Source of the DNA: Saprospiraceae bacterium
GTDB taxonomy: Bacteria > Bacteroidota > Bacteroidia > Chitinophagales > Saprospiraceae
Assembly: GCA_022841745.1 (NCBI GenBank)
Contig: JALHQW010000003.1
Location: 1-64,000, forward strand
Reading direction: 5' to 3'
Length of the DNA stretch: 64,000 nt
The notes beneath the pieces are model-generated. The model saw only the letters and a list, made by a program, of their open reading frames with translations. It was not told the DNA's origin and searched no databases. Below are positions 2,564 to 60,650 of this stretch, one piece after another (the stretch's first letter is position 1; each line of letters starts with the position of its first letter). The translations under genes were made by a program, and so were the position numbers.

Positions 2564-2739
2564 AAAGGGCTTTCTTATAAAAACTGCGCTGGGTTAATTT
2601 GTCGCTTTTGTCATCGCCGAAGGCGACCTGCGACGTCATGCGGGACTGCCCTCGTAATGTCGCAGGTCGCCTTCGGCGATGACAAAAGCGACTTAATGGG
2701 ACAAAGTATGGATTTACAATTTTTATAAGAAAGCCCTTT
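2564..2739. repeat. 176-bp nested palindrome (MITE-like)
   Basis: Outer arms 2564-2583 and 2720-2739 are perfect 20-bp inverted complements, starting AAAGGGCTTTCTTATAAAAA. Inner arms 2601-2634 and 2659-2692 are perfect 34-bp complements, and each contains a smaller TCGCC-TTC-GGCGA type hairpin. The inner arm includes a module (GTCGCCTTCGGCGATGAC) that recurs in altered but pair-conserving form inside the RNase H gene at about 26066-26084. Two nested perfect palindromes without coding capacity suggest a miniature mobile element. No target duplication was recognised. Confidence 0.85.
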
Positions 2740-17554: not shown

Positions 17555-18703
17555 ATGGTGGCCGTGGGTGCAATACAGGATTTCGTTTTTCAAAACCAGT
17601 TGGGCTGCGACTCCTTGGTCAATTTGACGGTTGCTCCATATCCTGTTGATTTTCAATCGGTTGACCTAATTTCCTGTCCCGGCCAACCAGCCTTATTCGA
17701 TGGCCAAGCCCTCATGCCGGGCGACACGATGAGCTTTGTTTACCAAAACCAACACGGCTGCGACTCAACCGTCACGGTCACGGTCGGGCTGTTCCAAGCG
17801 GCATCGCCCACGGTCATGGAGCTATTCGTTTGTACTGGCGACTCGCTGGTTTACAACGGCGAGACACTATGGCCGGGCGACGTGCGGAATTATGTATTCC
17901 AGGATGAAAACGGCTGTGATTCGTTGGTGAACCTGACCGTGTTGGCGCATCCTGTCATTGATTTCAAGGCGTTCACGGAGGCGGTTTGCCCCGGCAGTTT
18001 CGATGGCGTTATCGAGTTGGTGGCTATGGTGGGTGACGGGCCTTTTTCCACCAGTTTGGATGGGAGCAGTTTCAGTGATGAAACCCGTTTTGAAGCATTG
18101 CCGCAAGGCAACCACCAAATCACCCTAAAGGATGCACATGGCTGCATTGCTTCGCAACTCATTGAAATAGAAGCACTTGATTCACTTGTCTTAGAGGTTG
18201 AGGACTATGTTTTGCCCTGCGAGGAACCTAGCATCACGCTTCGGCCAAAGGTGCTTTCCCATGCAGGCCCCTTGCATTGGGCATGGCCCGACGGCTCCAC
18301 CTACGATTGGTTCAGGGCAACGCAGGGCGGGCTTTACCTCGTCAGCGTTTCGGATGATTGTACGACAAAGGAGCAGCCAATCACGGTCCATTGGGGCGAC
18401 GACACCCCTGCCTCCCCCGTCTATGTGCCCAATGCTTTTTCGCCCAATGGCGATGGGGTGAACGATGAATTCATGGTCTATCCCGCACAGGGTGTCGAAT
18501 TTTTGGCCTTCGAACTTCTCGTCTTCGACCGCTGGGGCAATTTGCTGTTCAGCAGCCAAGACCACAGAAGTGGATGGGATGGTTTTTACCGGGAAAAACG
18601 CATGGATACAGGTTTGGTGGTTTGGTACCTGAACGCCAAAATCACCAGTTGCGGACGGGAACTGGAACTGTTCCAAGAAGGTGGGGTGACTGTGATGAGA
18701 TGA
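17555..18703 (+). CDS. Headless T9SS type B cargo fragment (likely pseudogene of a larger adhesin)
   Basis: The first ATG gives 382 residues, but the same frame is open back to 17477, and its codons there (LTLFGCPGDSVWYDSQ, 17507-17554) are clearly part of the first repeat. There is no signal peptide. Visible are three ~52-residue CPGDS...GCDSLV repeats, a SprB-type repeat (CPGSFDGVIELVAMVGDGPF), an Ig-like unit and a complete type B sorting domain (VPNAFSPNGDGVNDEF, FDRWGNLLFSSQD, GWDGF). The same repeat style closes the 2190-residue protein at 6016. It begins within a few bases of the stop of the AT-rich upstream gene in a different frame, so it looks like the 3' remnant of a giant gene cut by replacement of its 5' part. 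Without a leader it should not be exported. Confidence 0.75.
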   Translation: MVAVGAIQDFVFQNQLGCDSLVNLTVAPYPVDFQSVDLISCPGQPALFDGQALMPGDTMSFVYQNQHGCDSTVTVTVGLFQAASPTVMELFVCTGDSLVYNGETLWPGDVRNYVFQDENGCDSLVNLTVLAHPVIDFKAFTEAVCPGSFDGVIELVAMVGDGPFSTSLDGSSFSDETRFEALPQGNHQITLKDAHGCIASQLIEIEALDSLVLEVEDYVLPCEEPSITLRPKVLSHAGPLHWAWPDGSTYDWFRATQGGLYLVSVSDDCTTKEQPITVHWGDDTPASPVYVPNAFSPNGDGVNDEFMVYPAQGVEFLAFELLVFDRWGNLLFSSQDHRSGWDGFYREKRMDTGLVVWYLNAKITSCGRELELFQEGGVTVMR

Positions 18704-18709
18704 TTCACG

Positions 18710-18836
18710 ATTGCGGATTAGCGGATTGCGGATTGCGGAACTTGTCCCGACACCTCGGGATTGACCGGAGCAAATCTGCCTTCTCGGGACATTGCCTAAA
18801 AAATTTGGAGCTACGAAGCCCGCAATCCGCAATCCG
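18710..18836. repeat. Heptad-array element with 28-bp core, copy 1
   Basis: 18710-18738 is ATTGCGG, ATTAGCGG, ATTGCGG, ATTGCGG. The shared core follows (18736-18763; hairpin CCCGA-cacc-TCGGG). After ~55 bp the reverse complement array CCGCAATCCGCAATCCG closes the element (to 18836), so the whole can fold. It starts six bases past the stop of the plus-strand fragment and reaches to within 16 bp of the TonB-receptor stop on the minus strand, so it separates two convergent genes. Confidence 0.85.
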
Positions 18837-18851
18837 AATTCTGAAATCGAA

Positions 18852-21257
18852 TCAATTCTGCTGCGCCCTCCTAATCACTTCCTCCGCACTGCTGCTGCGG
18901 CTACCCTTGCTCTTCATGTGCTGGTTGCCAAACTTGTAACTCACCTGCATATTGTAAACAGGAGCGTCCCAGCGGCTGACGATGTTGAAGTCCATATTGG
19001 CGTACTGTACGCTGCCGTGGAAGAAGCGGCGTAGTACGTTGTCAATGCCAACGCTGACCTTCAACTTGTCGTTGAGGAACTTGCGGGCCACGCCCACGTC
19101 AACGCCGTAGAGCCATTCTGCGTTGATGATTCCCTGTAGGCCGCCACTGTTCCAAAAGCCAGAAACCTCCATTTCCACCTTCTTGGGCAGGGTGATATTG
19201 GCGCTCAGGAAGGCCGTGTAGTCCCATTTGCTCCGGCTGAACTGCTGGTCGAGGTAGGGCGAGTCGTATTTATTGTGGTTGGCAATGAAGCCGCCGTAGC
19301 CGCTCGTCTTGGGGATGAAGTCGAGGGGGAAAAACAGGCTAATGTTCAGCACCTTGAAAGCGTCGAGGTTCACATTGGTCAGGAAGGTCTGACCGCTGGC
19401 GTCGTCCTGCTCGGTTACCTCCACCATGGCGTCGTTGGTATGCTTGTACTCGATATTGAAGAACGGTTGGTTCTCGAACATCAGGCTGAACTTGGTACTG
19501 TGCGTGAGCGAGGGGCGCAGCCGGGGGTTGCCCAATTCATAAGTATAGGGGTCGAGAAAATAAATGAAGGGGTTCAGGTCGCCGTAGTGCGGTCGGTCAA
19601 TGCGGTAGCTGTAGGCAATGGCGGCACCCAGTTTCTTGGTCAGTTCTCGGCTAAGGCTGGCACTGGGGAAAAGCTTGGCAATACGGCGAGACTGTGTGGA
19701 ATCCAGCGTGACCGAGTAGCCCTCGCTTTTGCTGTCCTCGTAGCGGAGGCCCGCCGTGCCCGACCATTTGCCCGCTTTCCAGTCCATTTTTGAGTACCCC
19801 GCCCAGATGGTTTCCTTGAACAGGAAATGGTTGCTCTGCAAGGAGTCTGGCTGGAAAACGCCGTTGGCATCCTCCCGGAAGGAGCGCAGGTCGTTGTCGA
19901 GGTCGGCGAGGCTGTAGCGGCCACCCATTTGCAGTTTGATGTCCTTGGAAATAGGCAGGGTATAATCGAGGCTGACCGTGTAAATCTCCGATTCGCCGGG
20001 CTGGTCGTAGCGCTGGTCGGGGGTAAATTCCCCGAAATTGGCCTCCTCTGGCATGAGCGTATTGCCGCCATTGTTGCCGATGCGCACGGCATTGAAGTCG
20101 AGGTCGAGCTTTTGTCCTTGCGTGTCAATCTCGAAGCTGTAATAGGGGTTAAGGGTGAGCATGTTCCAGTCCCTTGTTATCCGGTTGTCGGTCAGGATTT
20201 TCAGGTCGCCCGTGTTGGCGTCGGCGAAGTCAATAAGGGTGGTGTTGGTGATGGAATAGTCCCGCTTGCTGCCCACCCAACTGCTGTTGAAGCCGAGGCG
20301 GTGGCGCTCGGTCACGTCCCAGTCGAGGGTGAGGTTGGAGCGGAGGAAGTCGCTGATGTTCGGGTTTTCGGATACCTGGCTGTAAACATCGCTGCCCACC
20401 GAGCGCACCACGTCCAAGCCCTCGTACCAGGAGTTGCGACCTGTGCTTGCCCCGGCGCTGATGTTGAGGTTCCCTTGGTAATGGCTCAGGCTGAAACCCG
20501 TTCGGTAGCGCCAGTACTCGCCCTTGCTCACCCCGGCGTTCACGCTGCCGTTGGTGCCATAGAGGCTGTTTTTCTTCAAAATAATGTTGATGATAGGCCC
20601 CGTACCCTCCGCCTCGAACTCGGCCCCTGGCTGGTGGATGACCTCCACCCGCTTGATGTTGTCGCCGGGGATGTCCTTCAGCAGGGCGTCCACGTCCATG
20701 TATTTTGTTGTTTTGCCGTTGAGGAGGATGGTCACGTTGCTCTGGCCGGCCATCCGCAGCTTGTCGCCCACCACGATGACGCCGGGCACTTTTTTCATCA
20801 CTTCCAGCAGGTTGGAGTTCAGGCTGGTGAGGTTGTTCTCTACGTTCACGATGAGGCGGTCGGCCCGCTGTTCGAGCATGGGGGCCTTGGCAGTGACGGT
20901 CACGGTAGAGAGGCTCTGTGCTTCTTCATCGAGTTGGATGTCGAACTGCTTGCGGTTGTCCCTAGGGAAGCTGAGGTCGGCTATTTTTTCATCCAAAAAG
21001 CCGAGCATGCTCACTTCGAGGAAGTATTGCCCATCAGGGATGTCCTTGAGGCTGAACTTGCCGTTGGCATCGGAAGTTTCGCCCTTGAGGATGGTGCTGT
21101 CCGCCTGCTTGTACAGAGCGATGGTGGCGAAAAAAACGCCATCGCCCTTGGCGTTGGTGATGGTACCGGAGATTTGGTGCTGGGCAACTGCTTTTTGCGA
21201 AACAAACAGTAATGCCAAGGCAAGGCCAAGGATTGGCCAAGAAAGTCGGGTCTTCAT
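18852..21257 (-). CDS. TonB-dependent outer-membrane receptor with carboxypeptidase-like N-terminal domain
   Basis: 801 residues with a signal peptide (to the Ala-Gln at about residue 26). Residues ~28-110 are the carboxypeptidase-regulatory-like domain (ISGTITNAKGDGVFFATIAL). The plug is at ~120-225 (LLEVMKKVPGVIVVGDKLRM ... RVEVIHQPGAEFEAEGTGPI). The remainder is a 22-strand barrel of the outer-membrane beta-barrel family type, with aromatic-rich strands. It lacks a SusD partner and any adjacent binding protein, so the substrate is unknown; siderophore, peptide or sugar import are all possible. It is a single gene whose stop lies just before the heptad element at 18710-18836. Confidence 0.93.
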   Translation of the reverse strand: MKTRLSWPILGLALALLFVSQKAVAQHQISGTITNAKGDGVFFATIALYKQADSTILKGETSDANGKFSLKDIPDGQYFLEVSMLGFLDEKIADLSFPRDNRKQFDIQLDEEAQSLSTVTVTAKAPMLEQRADRLIVNVENNLTSLNSNLLEVMKKVPGVIVVGDKLRMAGQSNVTILLNGKTTKYMDVDALLKDIPGDNIKRVEVIHQPGAEFEAEGTGPIINIILKKNSLYGTNGSVNAGVSKGEYWRYRTGFSLSHYQGNLNISAGASTGRNSWYEGLDVVRSVGSDVYSQVSENPNISDFLRSNLTLDWDVTERHRLGFNSSWVGSKRDYSITNTTLIDFADANTGDLKILTDNRITRDWNMLTLNPYYSFEIDTQGQKLDLDFNAVRIGNNGGNTLMPEEANFGEFTPDQRYDQPGESEIYTVSLDYTLPISKDIKLQMGGRYSLADLDNDLRSFREDANGVFQPDSLQSNHFLFKETIWAGYSKMDWKAGKWSGTAGLRYEDSKSEGYSVTLDSTQSRRIAKLFPSASLSRELTKKLGAAIAYSYRIDRPHYGDLNPFIYFLDPYTYELGNPRLRPSLTHSTKFSLMFENQPFFNIEYKHTNDAMVEVTEQDDASGQTFLTNVNLDAFKVLNISLFFPLDFIPKTSGYGGFIANHNKYDSPYLDQQFSRSKWDYTAFLSANITLPKKVEMEVSGFWNSGGLQGIINAEWLYGVDVGVARKFLNDKLKVSVGIDNVLRRFFHGSVQYANMDFNIVSRWDAPVYNMQVSYKFGNQHMKSKGSRSSSAEEVIRRAQQN

Positions 21258-24079: not shown

Positions 24080-24133
24080 CAATCCCGAGGTGTCGGGACA
24101 AGTTCCGAAATCCGCAATCCCAAATCCGCAATC
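24080..24133. repeat. Heptad-array element with 28-bp core, copy 2
   Basis: 24080-24107 is the exact reverse complement of the core at 18736-18763. It is followed by AAATCCGCAATCCC and AAATCCGCAATC, i.e. GATTGCGG words when read on the minus strand. On that strand the array starts exactly at the TGA stop of the gene ending at 24132. No coding frame uses it here. Confidence 0.85.
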
Positions 24134-25451
24134 ACCCACCCTTCCCCAAATCCAACCCCCTCACCACCATCAAATACGACGCAGCAAACTCCGCCATATT
24201 CCTAAAATTCAACTGTTTCAAATCAAAGGCGAGACGGGGATACTCATCACTGTGCCTGTCCACGATGCCACGGATGGCCTGCTTGATGGCCTTCTCGTCG
24301 AGCAGCCCGGCGGGGGCGAGGGGCTGGAAGCCGAGGCTGAGGAAGTAGTCCGATTCGAGGATTTGCATCAGCAGGTGGAAGAAGTCCTTGTCGGGGGGCG
24401 GCAGTGCGAAGCTGAACAGCCCACGGCCCACGATGAAGCTTGGGATGGCCTGGGCGATGCGGTCGTGGCCGTTGTCGGCGTACCAGCGCATATTGGGCAG
24501 TTCCTGGTCTATCAGCACCATGAGCTTTTGGTGGTCAATGGGCGGCGTGATGCCGAAGGTAGTGCTCACCTCGTACAGTTCCTTGGCCAGTTTTTCGGAG
24601 GGGCGGTCCAGCAGCAGTTGGAACTCCTTGCGCAGGGCGAGGTTCTTCTCGGCGGCGTTCTTGCCGTCCTGTTGGAAGGTCATGCGGTCAATGCGCTCCA
24701 GCGTTTCCATCGTGAAACCCTCCGGCTTGGTGAGGTAGTCGAGGCGGTAGCAGAGGTCGAGCAGCAGGTAGGTGTAGGCCACGGGGTACTGGTCGGCGGG
24801 GAGCTTGCCCATGTCCATCTCCCCGAACACCGATTCGATTTCGTTGCGCAAATAGGCGATTTTGGTGGCCTTCTCTCCATCGGGCAGTTCCCGGCGCACG
24901 TTGAAGTCGGCGATTTCAAGTGCCTCGAACTCGTCCACGAGGATGTCGTCGTGCTTGTCGGCGATGGTGGCCAGTTCCCGCAGGGCGGCATGGAGCTTGT
25001 GCGGCGAGCCGTCGGCGGTGTGCGTATCGAAGACGATGGTGATTTCGTCGTCGGGCGTAAGGGCGAATCGGCTGTACTTCAAATCGAAATTGGCCTCCAA
25101 CAGCCGCCGCATGAAACTGGACTGCAGCGTTTTTGCCTTCGCAATGCGCGCAGCGGCGTAGAACTTCCGGTCGTTGGCATAACCCGATATTTTCTTGGAA
25201 CCTTGGAAAAACTCGAAGCGGAGTTCGCCCCGCTCCTCCCAAGCTCGCAGGTTCTGTTCCTCCCCATCGAGCAGGTAATCGAAGAACAGCACGTAGGCCG
25301 AGAGGTAGTTCTCCTTCATGAAGTCCTTGAGCGCCGCATCGAACGCCGCCTCCTTTGCAGCCGTGCGGTTGCTGTCGGTGTACCGCCCGAAGCGGATGGC
25401 GGGGATGGGAGTGGCGGGCTTGGAGCCAAAAAGTCTTCCGAATAATTTCAT
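24132..25451 (-). CDS. Conserved hypothetical cytoplasmic protein
   Basis: 439 residues, no signal peptide and no clear transmembrane segment. It starts MKLFGRLFGSKPATPIPAIR, a short basic amphipathic N-terminus that could touch the membrane. The bulk is alpha/beta with alternating charged helices (KDFMKENYLSAYVLFFDYLL, EFFQGSKKISGYANDRKFYA, KLMVLIDQELPNMRWYADNG). Residues ~60-160 resemble the YbjN / secretion-chaperone style fold only faintly, so I assign no function. A long open frame on the opposite strand is a GC-codon shadow. The stop coincides with the start of repeat copy 2. Confidence 0.75.
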   Translation of the reverse strand: MKLFGRLFGSKPATPIPAIRFGRYTDSNRTAAKEAAFDAALKDFMKENYLSAYVLFFDYLLDGEEQNLRAWEERGELRFEFFQGSKKISGYANDRKFYAAARIAKAKTLQSSFMRRLLEANFDLKYSRFALTPDDEITIVFDTHTADGSPHKLHAALRELATIADKHDDILVDEFEALEIADFNVRRELPDGEKATKIAYLRNEIESVFGEMDMGKLPADQYPVAYTYLLLDLCYRLDYLTKPEGFTMETLERIDRMTFQQDGKNAAEKNLALRKEFQLLLDRPSEKLAKELYEVSTTFGITPPIDHQKLMVLIDQELPNMRWYADNGHDRIAQAIPSFIVGRGLFSFALPPPDKDFFHLLMQILESDYFLSLGFQPLAPAGLLDEKAIKQAIRGIVDRHSDEYPRLAFDLKQLNFRNMAEFAASYLMVVRGLDLGKGG

Positions 25452-44871: not shown

Positions 44872-44880
44872 GGCGCAAAG

Positions 44881-44931
44881 GTAACACGGACTGGCAGTCC
44901 GTGTTACGTAGGCACGGACTGGCAGTCCGTG
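44881..44931. repeat. Two tandem palindromes between convergently spaced minus-strand genes
   Basis: 44881-44907 is a near-perfect palindrome with 12-bp arms (GTAACACGGACT ... AGTCCGTGTTAC), and 44913-44931 is a shorter copy (CACGGACTGGCAGTCCGTG). The first lies 10 bp upstream of the GtrA-type gene and the second touches the TAA stop of the flavoprotein gene. When read as protein it gives TDCQSVL-like peptides, which I recall as spurious ORF ends in other environmental genomes. Confidence 0.85.
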
Positions 44932-45591
44932 TTACCACCAAACAGAAACTTGATCAAGTGTTTTTCTTCGCAAATCGGGCACGGTCGCCCCTTCCGCTGG
45001 GTAGCCGACGGGGATGAGGAGGAAGGGTCGCTCGTTTTCTGGCCGGTCCAGAATGCGCTGGAGGAAGTTCATTGGGCTGGGCGTATGGGTGAGCGACACA
45101 AGGCCAGCTTGGTGGATGGCAGCCAACAGGAAACCACAGGCGATGCCCACCGATTCGTTGACGTAGTAGCATTTGCGGCGCTCGCCACCTTCTATTTCGT
45201 AGGCTTTTTTGAAAACGATGATAAGCCAAGGGGCGATTTCGAGGAAGGGCTTCTGCCAGTCGGTGCCGATTGGGGCAAGGTCTTGAAGCCATTCCTCGCT
45301 CATGCGCCCGCCATAACTCTCCCGTTCTTCTTCCTCTGCGGCATCCTTGATTTTTGATTTAACGGCGGGGTCTCCCACGATGCAAAACGTCCACGGCTGC
45401 TTGTGCGCCCCACTGGGAGCGGTGCTGGCCGTCATGACGATGTTCTCGATGACTTCCTTCGGAATGGGCTTGTCGGAAAAAAAGCGAAGGGAGCGGCGGC
45501 GCTCCATATAATCATGAAATGCCTTGCTACGGTCGAGGGTTTCGGCCTCCGTGAAATGGAGCGGGGAAAATGGGATGTGCGGATATTCCAT
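44932..45591 (-). CDS. Iodotyrosine-deiodinase-like flavoprotein (nitroreductase fold)
   Basis: 219 residues from the ATG at 45591 (MEYPHIPFSPLHFTEAETLD). FMN-binding features are RRRSLRFFSDKPIP, TASTAPSGAHKQPWTF and LIPVGYPAEGATVPDLRRK. The substrate lid reads EEEERESYGGRMSEEW and ends in TDWQKPFLEIAPW. Glu, Tyr four residues later, and Lys 21 residues after the Tyr have exactly the spacing of the three residues that bind the amino-acid end of halotyrosine in mammalian iodotyrosine deiodinase. Reductive dehalogenation of halotyrosines is therefore likely. It overlaps no gene; the ORF6N gene ends 43 bp upstream. Its TAA lies in the palindrome at 44881-44931. Confidence 0.9.
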   Translation of the reverse strand: MEYPHIPFSPLHFTEAETLDRSKAFHDYMERRRSLRFFSDKPIPKEVIENIVMTASTAPSGAHKQPWTFCIVGDPAVKSKIKDAAEEEERESYGGRMSEEWLQDLAPIGTDWQKPFLEIAPWLIIVFKKAYEIEGGERRKCYYVNESVGIACGFLLAAIHQAGLVSLTHTPSPMNFLQRILDRPENERPFLLIPVGYPAEGATVPDLRRKTLDQVSVWW

Positions 45592-52156: not shown

Positions 52157-54187
52157 TCAATACGAAACAAGTTTCCTCAACTGCCCCCTAAACCTTTCCA
52201 CCGGCAAATAATTCTGCTCCAATGGAATGGCAAACGGCACCGGCGTGTCCAAGCCCGCTGCCCGTAGCACTGGGCCGTCGAGGTGTTCGAACAGGTGCTC
52301 CGAAATCCAGGCAGACAGCTCGCTGCCGACGCCGCCCGTGAGCGTGTCCTCGTGCAGGATAACGACCCTGTTCGTCTTTTTCACTGTAGCCGTAATCGCC
52401 TCGTAATCAAGCGGTAAGAGCGTACGAAGGTCAATGATGTCAGCATCAATGCCTTCTTCTTCGCAGACCTTCAACGCCCAATGGACGCCCATGCCGTAGG
52501 TGATGACGCTCAGCGCCGAGCCTTCCCTTGCCACCCTCGCCTTGCCGATTTCGACAGTATAGTAGCCATCTGGGATTTCTTCTGAAATGGCCCGGTATAG
52601 TGCCTTGTGCTCGAAATACATGACCGGGTTCGGGTCCTCAAAAGCGGCCAGCAGTAGGCCCTTGGCGTCGTAAGGTGTGGATGGAATCACCACTTTCAAG
52701 CCCGGCGTGTGTACGAACCAAGCCTCGTTCGTTTGCGAGTGGAAAGGGCCCGCCCCTACCCCACCGCCGCTCGGCATCCGCACCACCACGTCGGCATTCA
52801 CGCCCCAGCGGTAGTGGATTTTGGCGAGGTTGTTCACGATTTGGTTGAAGGCGCAGGTCACAAAGTCGGCGAACTGCATCTCAACCATGCTCTTGAAGCC
52901 TTTTAAACTAAGGCCCAGCGCCGCACCCACGATGGCGCTCTCGCAAATCGGCGTGTTGCGCACCCGCTCCTTGCCGAACTCCTCCATGAAGCCTTGCGTG
53001 ATTTTGAAAACGCCGCCGTAATCAGCGATGTCTTGGCCCATCAACACAAGGTTGGCATGGCGTTGCATGGCAATGCGGAGGCCGTCGGATATTGCGTCAA
53101 TGTAACGACGTTCGGATTTCGGCCCAGTGGCGGACTGCGGACTGTGGACTGCGGACTGCGGAACTTGTCCCGACACCTCGGGATTGGGAGCGTACACGTC
53201 GCCCAATTCTTCCTCCAGATTCGGTTCGATTTCGGGTTCGGAAACAGTGATTTTCCAAGCCGCCTCTATCTCGTCCTTTATCTCTTTGCGGTACTTCGCA
53301 ATGGTCTTCTCCTCCAAAACACCCTCTTCGAGCAGGTAGCGTTCGTAGTTGTCGAGGGGGTCTTTCAGCGCCCAAGTTTCGAGGAGTTCCTTGGGCACGT
53401 ACTTCACGCCGCTCGCCTCTTCGTGGCCACGCATTCTGAAAGTTTTACACTCAACCAGCACAGGGTGCGGCTTTTTCCGCATCTCGACGGCCAATTTGTC
53501 AATCGTGTTATAAACTTCGAGGATGTTGTTGCCATCCAAGATGACCGATTTCATACCATAGCCAACGCCTTTGTCTGCAATGTTTTCGCAGCGATACTGC
53601 TCGCTGGTGGTGGTGCTGAGGCCATAGCCGTTGTTTTCAACGACAAAAATCACGGGCAGGTCCCAGACGGCGGCCACATTCAGTGCTTCGTGGAAATCGC
53701 CTTCGCTGGTGCCACCCTCGCCACTGAATGCCAGCGCGACCCGGCCTTCGCCTTTTAGTTTATGTGCCAATGCCGCCCCATCCGCTAATGCCAACTGAGG
53801 GCCGAGGTGGCTTATCATACCCACGATGCCGTAGTCCAGTGTACCGAAGTGGAAGCTGCGCTCTCGGCCTTTTGAGAATCCGCTTTTCTTGCCTTGCCAC
53901 TGTGAAAACAGGGTTGCCAAAGGCACGTCACGCACCGTGAAAACGCCGAGGTTGCGGTGCAGGGTGAACACCAGTTCGTCGGGCAGCAGGGCACTTGTTA
54001 CGCCCACGGCGATGGCCTCCTGCCCGATGCCACTAAACCATTTTGACACTTGTCCCTGGCGCAGGAGGATGAGCATTTTCTCCTCAATCATGCGGGGTTT
54101 CAGCAAGCGGCGGTAGAGCATGAGCAAGGTGTCTTTACTCAGTTTTCCTTTGTTGAACTTTATTGGCTGGGCAGTTGCTGTGGGCAT
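52157..54187 (-). CDS. Fused alpha/beta branched-chain 2-oxoacid dehydrogenase E1
   Basis: 676 residues. The N-terminal half (~1-330) is the alpha subunit with the thiamine-diphosphate motif FSGEGGTSEGDFHEALNVAA and ENNGYGLST. The C-terminal half (~355-676) is the beta subunit (MGQDIADYGGVFKITQGFME, ESAIVGAALGLSLKG, ILHEDTLTGGVGSE). It decarboxylates branched-chain 2-oxoacids and acylates the E2 lipoyl group, feeding CoA thioesters for fatty-acid primers. Residues ~334-352 (NPEVSGQVPQSAVHSPQSA) are encoded by repeat copy 3 and lie in the linker, where the frame stays open. E2 and E3 are not adjacent. A promoter box lies at 54216-54223. Confidence 0.95.
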   Translation of the reverse strand: MPTATAQPIKFNKGKLSKDTLLMLYRRLLKPRMIEEKMLILLRQGQVSKWFSGIGQEAIAVGVTSALLPDELVFTLHRNLGVFTVRDVPLATLFSQWQGKKSGFSKGRERSFHFGTLDYGIVGMISHLGPQLALADGAALAHKLKGEGRVALAFSGEGGTSEGDFHEALNVAAVWDLPVIFVVENNGYGLSTTTSEQYRCENIADKGVGYGMKSVILDGNNILEVYNTIDKLAVEMRKKPHPVLVECKTFRMRGHEEASGVKYVPKELLETWALKDPLDNYERYLLEEGVLEEKTIAKYRKEIKDEIEAAWKITVSEPEIEPNLEEELGDVYAPNPEVSGQVPQSAVHSPQSATGPKSERRYIDAISDGLRIAMQRHANLVLMGQDIADYGGVFKITQGFMEEFGKERVRNTPICESAIVGAALGLSLKGFKSMVEMQFADFVTCAFNQIVNNLAKIHYRWGVNADVVVRMPSGGGVGAGPFHSQTNEAWFVHTPGLKVVIPSTPYDAKGLLLAAFEDPNPVMYFEHKALYRAISEEIPDGYYTVEIGKARVAREGSALSVITYGMGVHWALKVCEEEGIDADIIDLRTLLPLDYEAITATVKKTNRVVILHEDTLTGGVGSELSAWISEHLFEHLDGPVLRAAGLDTPVPFAIPLEQNYLPVERFRGQLRKLVSY
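53131..53188. repeat. Heptad-array element with 28-bp core, copy 3, inside the E1 gene
   Basis: Four heptads CGGACTG, CGGACTG, TGGACTG, CGGACTG (53131-53158) are followed by the core identical to copies 1 and 2. Length and phase keep the E1 frame open. On the coding strand this gives about 19 Ser/Gln/Pro-rich residues in the alpha-beta linker. Confidence 0.9.
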
Positions 54188-59455: not shown

Positions 59456-60493
59456 ATGAACATTGCCTTGAAAACAAAATTACAATTTCTTGTTCCCGTC
59501 TTTTTGTTGGGTAGCCTTGGGCTATTGGCACAGGACATTCACTTCAGCCAATACTACCACGCCCCCCTGACGATGAACCCTGCCCTCACGGCCCTTTCCA
59601 AAGGAGATATCCGTATCACCTCCATTTATCGCAGCCAATGGAACGCAGCCAATGCCCGTTACAAGACTTTCAACGTTGCTGCTGAGAAGAAATTCTACAA
59701 CATCAACCACGATAAATGGTGGTTCAGCGCTGGCCTTGACCTTGCACATGACCAAGCTGGTTTTGGCAATCTGACCAACAACCACATCCTCCTTACAGGC
59801 TCTTATACCCGCATACTCGACCGCAGAAACTTCCTTTCCGTGGGCGCATCGCTCGGCCTCGGCCAGCGGGGCTTCGACCCCGGCAACCTCACTTTTGACA
59901 ATATGTGGAACGGCGATATCGTGGACTTTAACCGCCCGACCGGGGAGGATTTTGACGATACCAATTTCACCTATCCCGACATGGGTGCCGGCGTTAACAT
60001 CCGTAGGCAATGGCCCAAAAAGCGAAGCAAGGTTGATTTTGGTTTGGGCTTTTTCCATGTCAACTCGCCAAGGCAGTCCTATTACAAAAACAAGGATTCC
60101 GCATTGCCCATGCGGGCAGCCATCACCGTTTTGCCAACTTTTCAACTGAAACCAAATGGGGATGCCGTATTTGCAGCCACCGTGCAGCAACAGGGCGAGT
60201 ACATGGAGGCAGTAGTAAATGCTGGCTATCGGCACTATACAAGCTTGCAACGGGCAAAGGAAATTGCCGTACAGTTTGGTGTGGGATTCCGTTTCAACAA
60301 CAAATTGGGCGATGCCTTTATGCCAGCAGTGGAGTTGCACTACCACGACCTCATGGTTGGCTTAAGTTGGGACTTTAATGTGTCGGAGTTCAGGACGGCT
60401 ACGAGGCGCAATGGCGGCCCCGAAATCGCCATCCGGTACATCTTGCACAAGGTTTACCCGATGAAGCTGTTCAAGGCTTGCCCCCTTATTTAG
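59456..60493 (+). CDS. PorP/SprF-family type IX secretion outer-membrane protein
   Basis: 345 residues with a signal peptide (to the Ala-Gln near residue 26). [20 protein letters not shown] is the family signature. The rest is an outer-membrane barrel with aromatic strands and the [29 protein letters not shown] and [13 protein letters not shown] strands. PorP/SprF proteins anchor or guide T9SS cargo, particularly type B cargo. The gene is followed by the 8-bp array at its stop and then by the PorE-like gene. Confidence 0.93.
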
Positions 60494-60650
60494 AGCGTGA
60501 GAGATGTGAGAGCGTGAGAGCGTGAGAGCGTGAGAGCGTGAGAGCGTGAGAGCGTGAGAGCGTGAGAGCGTGAGAGCGTGAGAGCGTGAGAGCGTGAGGC
60601 GCCCCCTCTCACCTTCTCACATCTCTCACCCTCTCACCCTCTCTTAAAGG
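60491..60650 (+). repeat. AGAGCGTG microsatellite and complement between PorP/SprF and PorE-like genes
   Basis: 11 perfect tandem copies of AGAGCGTG (60509-60596), preceded by AGAGCGTG and AGAGATGTG variants that begin in the TAG stop codon of PorP/SprF (60491-60493). CTCTCACC-like words follow at 60605-60645, so a long stem can form. A copy-number change would alter the distance or structure between two operon genes without touching a coding frame. Confidence 0.95.

Follow-up and report, generated by a model that had tools for sequence, protein, structure and literature searches.

The DNA analysed here (the window, 64,000 nucleotides of a Saprospiraceae genome of 8.43 Mb, G000) carries the same 28-nt core, CGGAACTTGTCCCGACACCTCGGGATTG, as exact copies at 18736-18763 (+), 24080-24107 (−) and 53159-53186 (+). 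The perfect hairpin CCCGAnnnnTCGGG is found at three places only within the window, and these are the three core copies. Exact matching thus confirmed the three identical copies, the second of them inverted, reported by the first-pass annotation, and heptads were present each time on the GGAAC side, as it had claimed (GATTGCG, ATTGCGG/ATTTCGG and ACTGCGG, respectively). The features of these loci are as follows.

18709..18739, plus strand: heptad array (GATTGCG)n, adjoining copy 1 on the left; the gene that ends at 18703 has its stop codon just before the array
18740..18760, plus strand: copy 1 of a 21-nt unit, ACTTG-TCCCGA-CACC-TCGGGA, its length and register being taken from orthologous empty sites
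18782..18794, minus strand: inverted remnant of a second core, TCTCGGGACATTG, facing copy 1 and pairing with its TGTCCCGA in the predicted fold
18820..18836, minus strand: inverted heptad array (CCGCAAT)n, pairing with 18709-18739 in a predicted long stem between convergent genes
24083..24103, minus strand: copy 2 of the 21-nt unit, inverted
24104..24133, minus strand: heptad array ATTGCGG/ATTTGGG/ATTTCGG, between copy 2 and the stop codon of the gene at 24132-25451 (−)
52157..54187, minus strand: fused E1 alpha-beta gene for a 2-oxoacid dehydrogenase, in which copy 3 lies
53130..53162, plus strand: heptad array (ACTGCGG)n beside copy 3, read as PQSAVHSPQSA on the coding strand, in the E1-alpha/E1-beta linker
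53163..53183, plus strand: copy 3 of the 21-nt unit, within the E1 gene, in frame on the coding (minus) strand as part of NPEVSGQVP

The E1 protein contains the domains E1_dh (28-322), Transket_pyr (362-532) and Transketolase_C (548-662), and its predicted translation over the insert is NPEVSGQVPQSA. At the first locus, the region 18700-18855 between the convergent genes is predicted to fold into one long stem (−66.6 kcal/mol, z −6.5) in which the arrays following both stop codons pair; paired arrays of this kind would form long RNA/DNA stems, probably serving as 3'-end structures. This fold favours the idea that the core is kept for an RNA role, as a 3'-end or terminator hairpin or as a regulatory site, the coding copies being by-products. 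However, the DNA fold of the core with its own array (18709-18765) was no better than chance (z −1.3), and there was no Rfam match within the window.

Looking at the whole genome, we found the 27-mer GGAACTTGTCCCGACACCTCGGGATTG at 10 places, 7 exact and 3 with one or two mismatches, so the genome count suggested by the first-pass annotation did yield further copies. The same pattern read backwards was found at none, and chance recurrence of the core was therefore ruled out. Among 60 relatives the 27-mer occurred at 12 places in G006 and at one each in G001 and G011, the other 57 having none, and the ATTGCGG-flanked form was confined to the source genus. A search of 84,980 species genomes gave two exact matches, both in Saprospiraceae MAGs. 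The 24-nt core had no exact match in IMG/VR, and a viral origin was dropped on this ground.

Seven of the 10 copies lie in frame within conserved coding genes, which encode an NRPS adenylation domain (L001), the fused E1 (window 53160, L004), an nSTAND1 NTPase (L005), UvrA (L006), a UvrD helicase/PD-DExK nuclease (L007), a PKS-aminotransferase (L009) and a methylmalonyl-CoA mutase (L010). Of the non-coding copies, two lie at the 3' ends of genes (window 18737 and 24080) and the third just upstream of a likely start codon (L008). This distribution also goes against an RNA role, since the majority of the ATTGCGG-type core copies are intragenic. For every intragenic copy the CCGCAAT strand is the coding strand; the insert is read as NPEVSGQVPQ or NPEVSGLVPQ in five genes and in another frame (GVGTSS) in two. 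Direct reading showed that the 21-nt unit and the CCGCAAT word are each free of stop codons in all six frames. Since 21 nt make up three heptads and seven codons, and no frame of the unit is closed, both the array register and the reading frame are left unchanged.

The length of the unit was obtained from filled sites and their empty orthologs in sister species, all deletion lengths from 0 to 42 being tried and the edit distance between filled and empty ortholog calculated. For the methylmalonyl-CoA mutase and UvrA (G000 versus G011), removal of 21 nt was the single best fit (edit distances of 6 and 4, respectively). Removals of 20, 21 and 22 nt tied for UvrD (G000 versus G008, edit distance 4), as did removals of 20-22 nt for E1 of another species (G008 versus G001, edit distance 21). 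In all four comparisons the difference in length was exactly 21. The E1 pair G000 and G006 did not give a clean +21, the difference being 18 with further changes. In UvrA, UvrD and the mutase the best-fitting excision begins at a common base, TCCCGAnnnnTCGGGAC(A/T)AGT, and the opposite strand of the excised unit reads NCTTG-TCCCGA-NNNN-TCGGGA, the mutase copy having CTAG. At these three sites the hairpin is missing from the same array in G011 or G008, and filled and empty orthologous sites have equal numbers of heptads. No target duplication of the kind that goes with the terminal inverted repeats of a MITE was visible at any of the three, where a short one could hide in the repeat; the target duplications that the first-pass annotation proposed to look for were thus not seen. 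Within genes, selection on the frame removes lengths that are not multiples of three, and +21 is there partly a survivor's length; among the +21 contexts only the REP-like one described below is free of this filter.

The E1 linker was compared across the orthologs of 13 genomes of the genus, G000 included (L136-L148). A 7-bp array was present in this same alpha-beta linker in 9 of the 13 (none in G002, G003, G005 and G007), with the words GCAATCC (G004, G006, G011), GCAGTCC (G000), GAAATCC (G012), GGCAGTT (G001, G008), GCAGTGA (G009) and CAGTCTT (G010). Only G000 and G008 have the hairpin, G010 having a different insert. In the PKS linker the hairpin is found in both G000 and G006, in an equal total of 58 nt but displaced by exactly two heptads, which would reflect either two insertions or compensating slippage. 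When the left and right flanks of 71 hairpin sites were compared, the best matches were obtained at shifts of 28 (0.425) and 35 (0.356) over a background of about 0.25, as expected from a 21-nt insert in 7-bp arrays.

The hairpin might instead be immobile, having arisen by array slippage and point mutation, or being ancestral and lost in sister species. The change of array words between sister species and the PKS linker filled in both genomes are compatible with this, but we hold it to be very improbable: one 21-nt unit recurs across several sequence contexts, identical 27-mers stand at seven loci, and the UvrA, UvrD and mutase sites of sister species lack the hairpin at matching heptad counts. 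Taken together, these comparisons show that older arrays gained a discrete 21-nt tag-plus-hairpin unit while heptad number and frame stayed unchanged. The gain is clean in UvrA and the methylmalonyl-CoA mutase; UvrD, E1 of another species and a family of non-heptad repeats support it. The 28-bp core of the first-pass annotation therefore stands as a sequence, but the unit that moved is 21 nt and the outer bases belong to the array. Its suggestion was of recent movement or gene conversion, and movement or copying is supported by the further genome copies, the empty orthologous sites and the 21-nt difference. As for the heptads, which it had presented as neighbours, they are indeed there, but in the gene comparisons they pre-date the hairpin and are hence not incidental.

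The non-heptad contexts came from the generic hairpin TGTCCCGANNNNTCGGGA, which occurs exactly at 58 places in G000, 62 in G010, 31 in G006 and 26 in G008, with fewer or none elsewhere; it was present in 5 of 46 genera only, and the backward control gave none. Its contexts in G000 include arrays of GGCAGTT, TTTCAG and GATTTCA, REP-like inverted repeats and degenerate tRNA copies. In a repeat family without reading frame, two neighbouring copies at L203, compared by eye, differ by 21 nt, GGCAAGCTACGACG versus GGCAA[TCCTGAGAAATCGGGACAAGC]GCTGCGACG, and L195 and L032, also compared by eye, likewise show a 21-nt difference outside heptads and reading frames. A long inverted repeat in the window (2601-2692, GTCGCTTTTGTCATCGCCGAAGGCGAC...) belongs to a repeat family that recurs at other places of the genome and includes members with the 21-nt hairpin. 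Two tRNA-Asp-like degenerate copies (L228, minus-strand 562 and 1019, G000 C82), beside an intact tRNA sequence, have the anticodon arm swapped for TGTCCCGANNNNTCGGGA, and in another genus the same hairpin replaces the anticodon arm of a tRNA-Leu-like degenerate copy (L067, G032).

We consider it probable that a 21-nt REP-like unit was inserted into 7-bp arrays already in place and into other repeats, leaving no target duplication that can be seen. The unit consists of a 5-nt tag ending in CTTG (CCTG elsewhere) and a 16-nt hairpin, TCCCGA-NNNN-TCGGGA. It would have arrived as a folded single strand, either through an HUH/TnpA-REP-type transposase acting in trans or through a template switch at the replication fork. 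After its entry into an ATTGCGG array, recombination over the sequence common to such arrays may have spread it to others, and may have produced the near-identical CACC-loop subfamily of G000. Every copy of this subfamily is in or beside heptad arrays, a placement that fits array recombination and insertion equally well.

A less probable account, though one we take seriously, is spread purely by homologous or microhomology recombination (gene conversion) between arrays, without transposition, the +21 resulting from in-register alignment. All 10 copies in G000 are in or beside heptads, the array words are common genome-wide (matches to a 20-nt CAATCCG array number 128 in G000 and 137 in G006), and in UvrA, the mutase and E1 of G000 the core has one and the same position, adjacent to the array's last AATCC word. 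Against it, the unit is also found in GGCAGTT, TTTCAG and GATTTCA arrays and in a non-heptad repeat, where there is no array homology to exchange; moreover, heptad numbers are constant at filled sites, though in genes the frame demands this. The probabilities given to these accounts overlap, since a founding insertion and recombination are not mutually exclusive, and any one enzyme is given less than the insertion itself. A narrower form of insertion, in which the unit, shorter than the mobile palindromes compared, transposes as a single-stranded hairpin with the fast-changing heptad arrays as landing pads, we regard as unlikely; if true, the unit would have a frame-safe entry to essential genes, its length being a multiple of both 7 and 3, and it would add to protein linkers.

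The REP/RAYT comparison made in the first-pass annotation bears on the enzyme. At 21 nt with a 16-nt hairpin, the unit falls within REP size (an imperfect palindrome of 20-40 nt in multiple copies), and its anatomy of 5' tag, short hairpin and multiple copies is REP-like. The GTAG/CGTC tag, however, is absent, the foot being CTTG or CCTG in nearly every context examined. The substrate of TnpA-REP enzymes is a hairpin with a GTAG foot, and cleavage is at CT (PMC8266576); the CTTG foot would need an enzyme of its own. Y1_Tnp places number 9 in G000 and 13 in five relatives, but no RAYT closely flanked by the 21-nt unit was found in G000, G003, G006, G010 and G011. The RAYT-type genes of G000 either lack flanking hairpins or have other ones, L060-L063 and L065 carrying different hairpins of their own. 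That the unit is a true REP moved by the RAYT (TnpA-REP) proteins of the genome, each insertion being a direct transposition, is consequently doubtful in our estimation, in spite of its tag-plus-hairpin form and of the several HUH Y1 transposase genes present. Some of the latter (L057/L058 type) have no obvious REP of their own, and their proteins could act in trans on the unit. Only one gene, a broken RAYT-like one of G008 (L165), has two CCTG-TCCCGATTTTTCGGGA hairpins near it as an inverted pair, which also speaks for this route, and L061 has a single TCCCGATTTTTCGGGA hairpin more than 1 kb away. The REP comparison thus holds for anatomy, and fails for the tag and for a unit-flanked RAYT in G000.

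Several distinct RAYT/REP-like systems are present in G000 (L060, L061, L062, L063 and L065), for example, GGTTCAAGTC-nnnn-GACTTGAACC surrounds L062/L063, and L065 has ACACCGGAACCCCAGTTCCGGTGT in many copies. The palindrome CACGGACTGGCAGTCCGTGTTAC at 44880-44936 of the window, in two direct copies 28 bp apart, is possibly another REP-like element.

The arrays themselves were surveyed in stretches totalling 864 kb, window included, and placed relative to genes called by a simple home-made codon-usage method. There were 26 strict tandem arrays of period 7 and 10 of period 8, compared with none in block-shuffled sequence. At a relaxed threshold we counted 79 arrays of many words, 38 intergenic, 27 intragenic and 14 at gene edges; among the intragenic ones the C-rich strand was coding in 24 and the opposite in 3. 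Inverted array pairs within 700 bp numbered 8 in this sample. A polar model, in which one side of the array ends in GGGGC, was set aside as weakly supported (GGGG close to the 3' side in 13 of 79 arrays and to the 5' side in 7, background 3.8%). Arrays are over-represented in convergent gaps (15/51, compare with 68/397 gaps in general), and 22 have a stop codon no more than 15 nt away, where random placement would give 12.8. Both figures are in line with an RNA role for the core, but start codons are about as frequent as neighbours (17 arrays within 15 nt, 8.9 expected). With the chance-level fold and the intragenic majority reported above, we regard it as unlikely that such a role kept the core.

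Orthologous linkers of sister species have different 7-bp words, changed as a block, in E1 (L136-L148) and in the UvrA N-termini (L233-L245); the words in these two proteins include CCGCAAT, CCGCAGT, CCGAAAT, GGCAGTT, CGTCAAT, CCCAATT, GTCCATC and CACCAAT. A correspondence between the linker word and a common genome-wide word fits G001 (GGCAGTT, 95) and G006 (CAATCCG, 137) but fails for G000 and G008. Intragenic arrays would be tolerated as hydrophilic linkers (PQSAIRN repeats). In the UvrD linker (L249-L253) an inverted heptad pair, NRIGLRIADYGLR ... PQSAIRNPQSAIQLLTAHSSKGLEF, is in frame within the coding sequence, and the helicase mRNA could form from it a stem like the intergenic ones. A single NRPS/PKS open frame of G000 (C1:151914-163964) has seven heptad or octad arrays with differing words, and in the window (60492-60643) a 13-copy 8-bp array, AGAGCGTG, is followed by GGCGCCCCC and then by an inverted 8-bp array, CCCTCTCA. 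Altogether, the heptad arrays are a larger phenomenon than the core: their period is sharply 7 or 8 bp, their words are many and differ between species at a given linker, and they occur as inverted pairs at the ends of genes and as in-frame protein linkers.

Clean filled and empty sites in sister species reveal insertion events for a REP-like hairpin, and show how essential enzymes can take up repeat DNA and stay intact. They also expose a broader process in which 7-bp arrays persist in protein linkers while the word turns over as a block, and make the origin and homogenisation of bacterial heptad arrays directly testable. In the open-licence literature we found no report of an in-register hairpin in heptads or of a word change at orthologous linkers. 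REPs are palindromes tagged with GTAG or CGTC (PMC3733652; TnpA-REP, PMC8266576), and intragenic ones have been described in hosts including uvrA and the UvrD/REP helicase (PMC3733652). Like them, the unit is a short multi-copy palindrome whose foot carries an unpaired tag; REPs lie mostly near gene 3' ends and sometimes in frame, and host genes of the uvrA and UvrD/REP-helicase type carry the 21-nt unit here too. Unlike them, it has a CTTG/CCTG tag, a length of 21 nt, a 6-bp stem and a free 4-nt loop, lies in register inside heptad arrays and has no cognate RAYT found in G000. Rickettsia palindromic elements, of 105-146 bp (reviewed in PMC2229807), are likewise palindromic repeats joined in frame to many conserved protein genes, but our unit, at 21 nt and set in 7-bp arrays, is far from their size of about 100-150 bp. 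PARCEL coding repeats (PMC2996958) are also palindromic DNA repeats read as protein; they are 25-residue domain repeats, and their period and size differ from those of the unit. Heptameric arrays have been described as GGGAATC in Xanthomonas and GGGGA(C/T)T in Nostoc (PMC4692102), and as TAACTGA in Beggiatoaceae and some Bacteroidetes (PMC4679880). Our arrays resemble these dispersed 7-bp tandems, which are often at stop codons, sometimes intragenic and, in Xanthomonas, often in inverted pairs; indeed, we found an excess of the 7-bp period, inverted pairs and placement at gene 3' ends. In contrast to the published arrays, with their focus on one word, many words and 8-bp words coexist here, about one third of the arrays are intragenic, the words at a given site differ between sister species, and the arrays contain an embedded hairpin unit.
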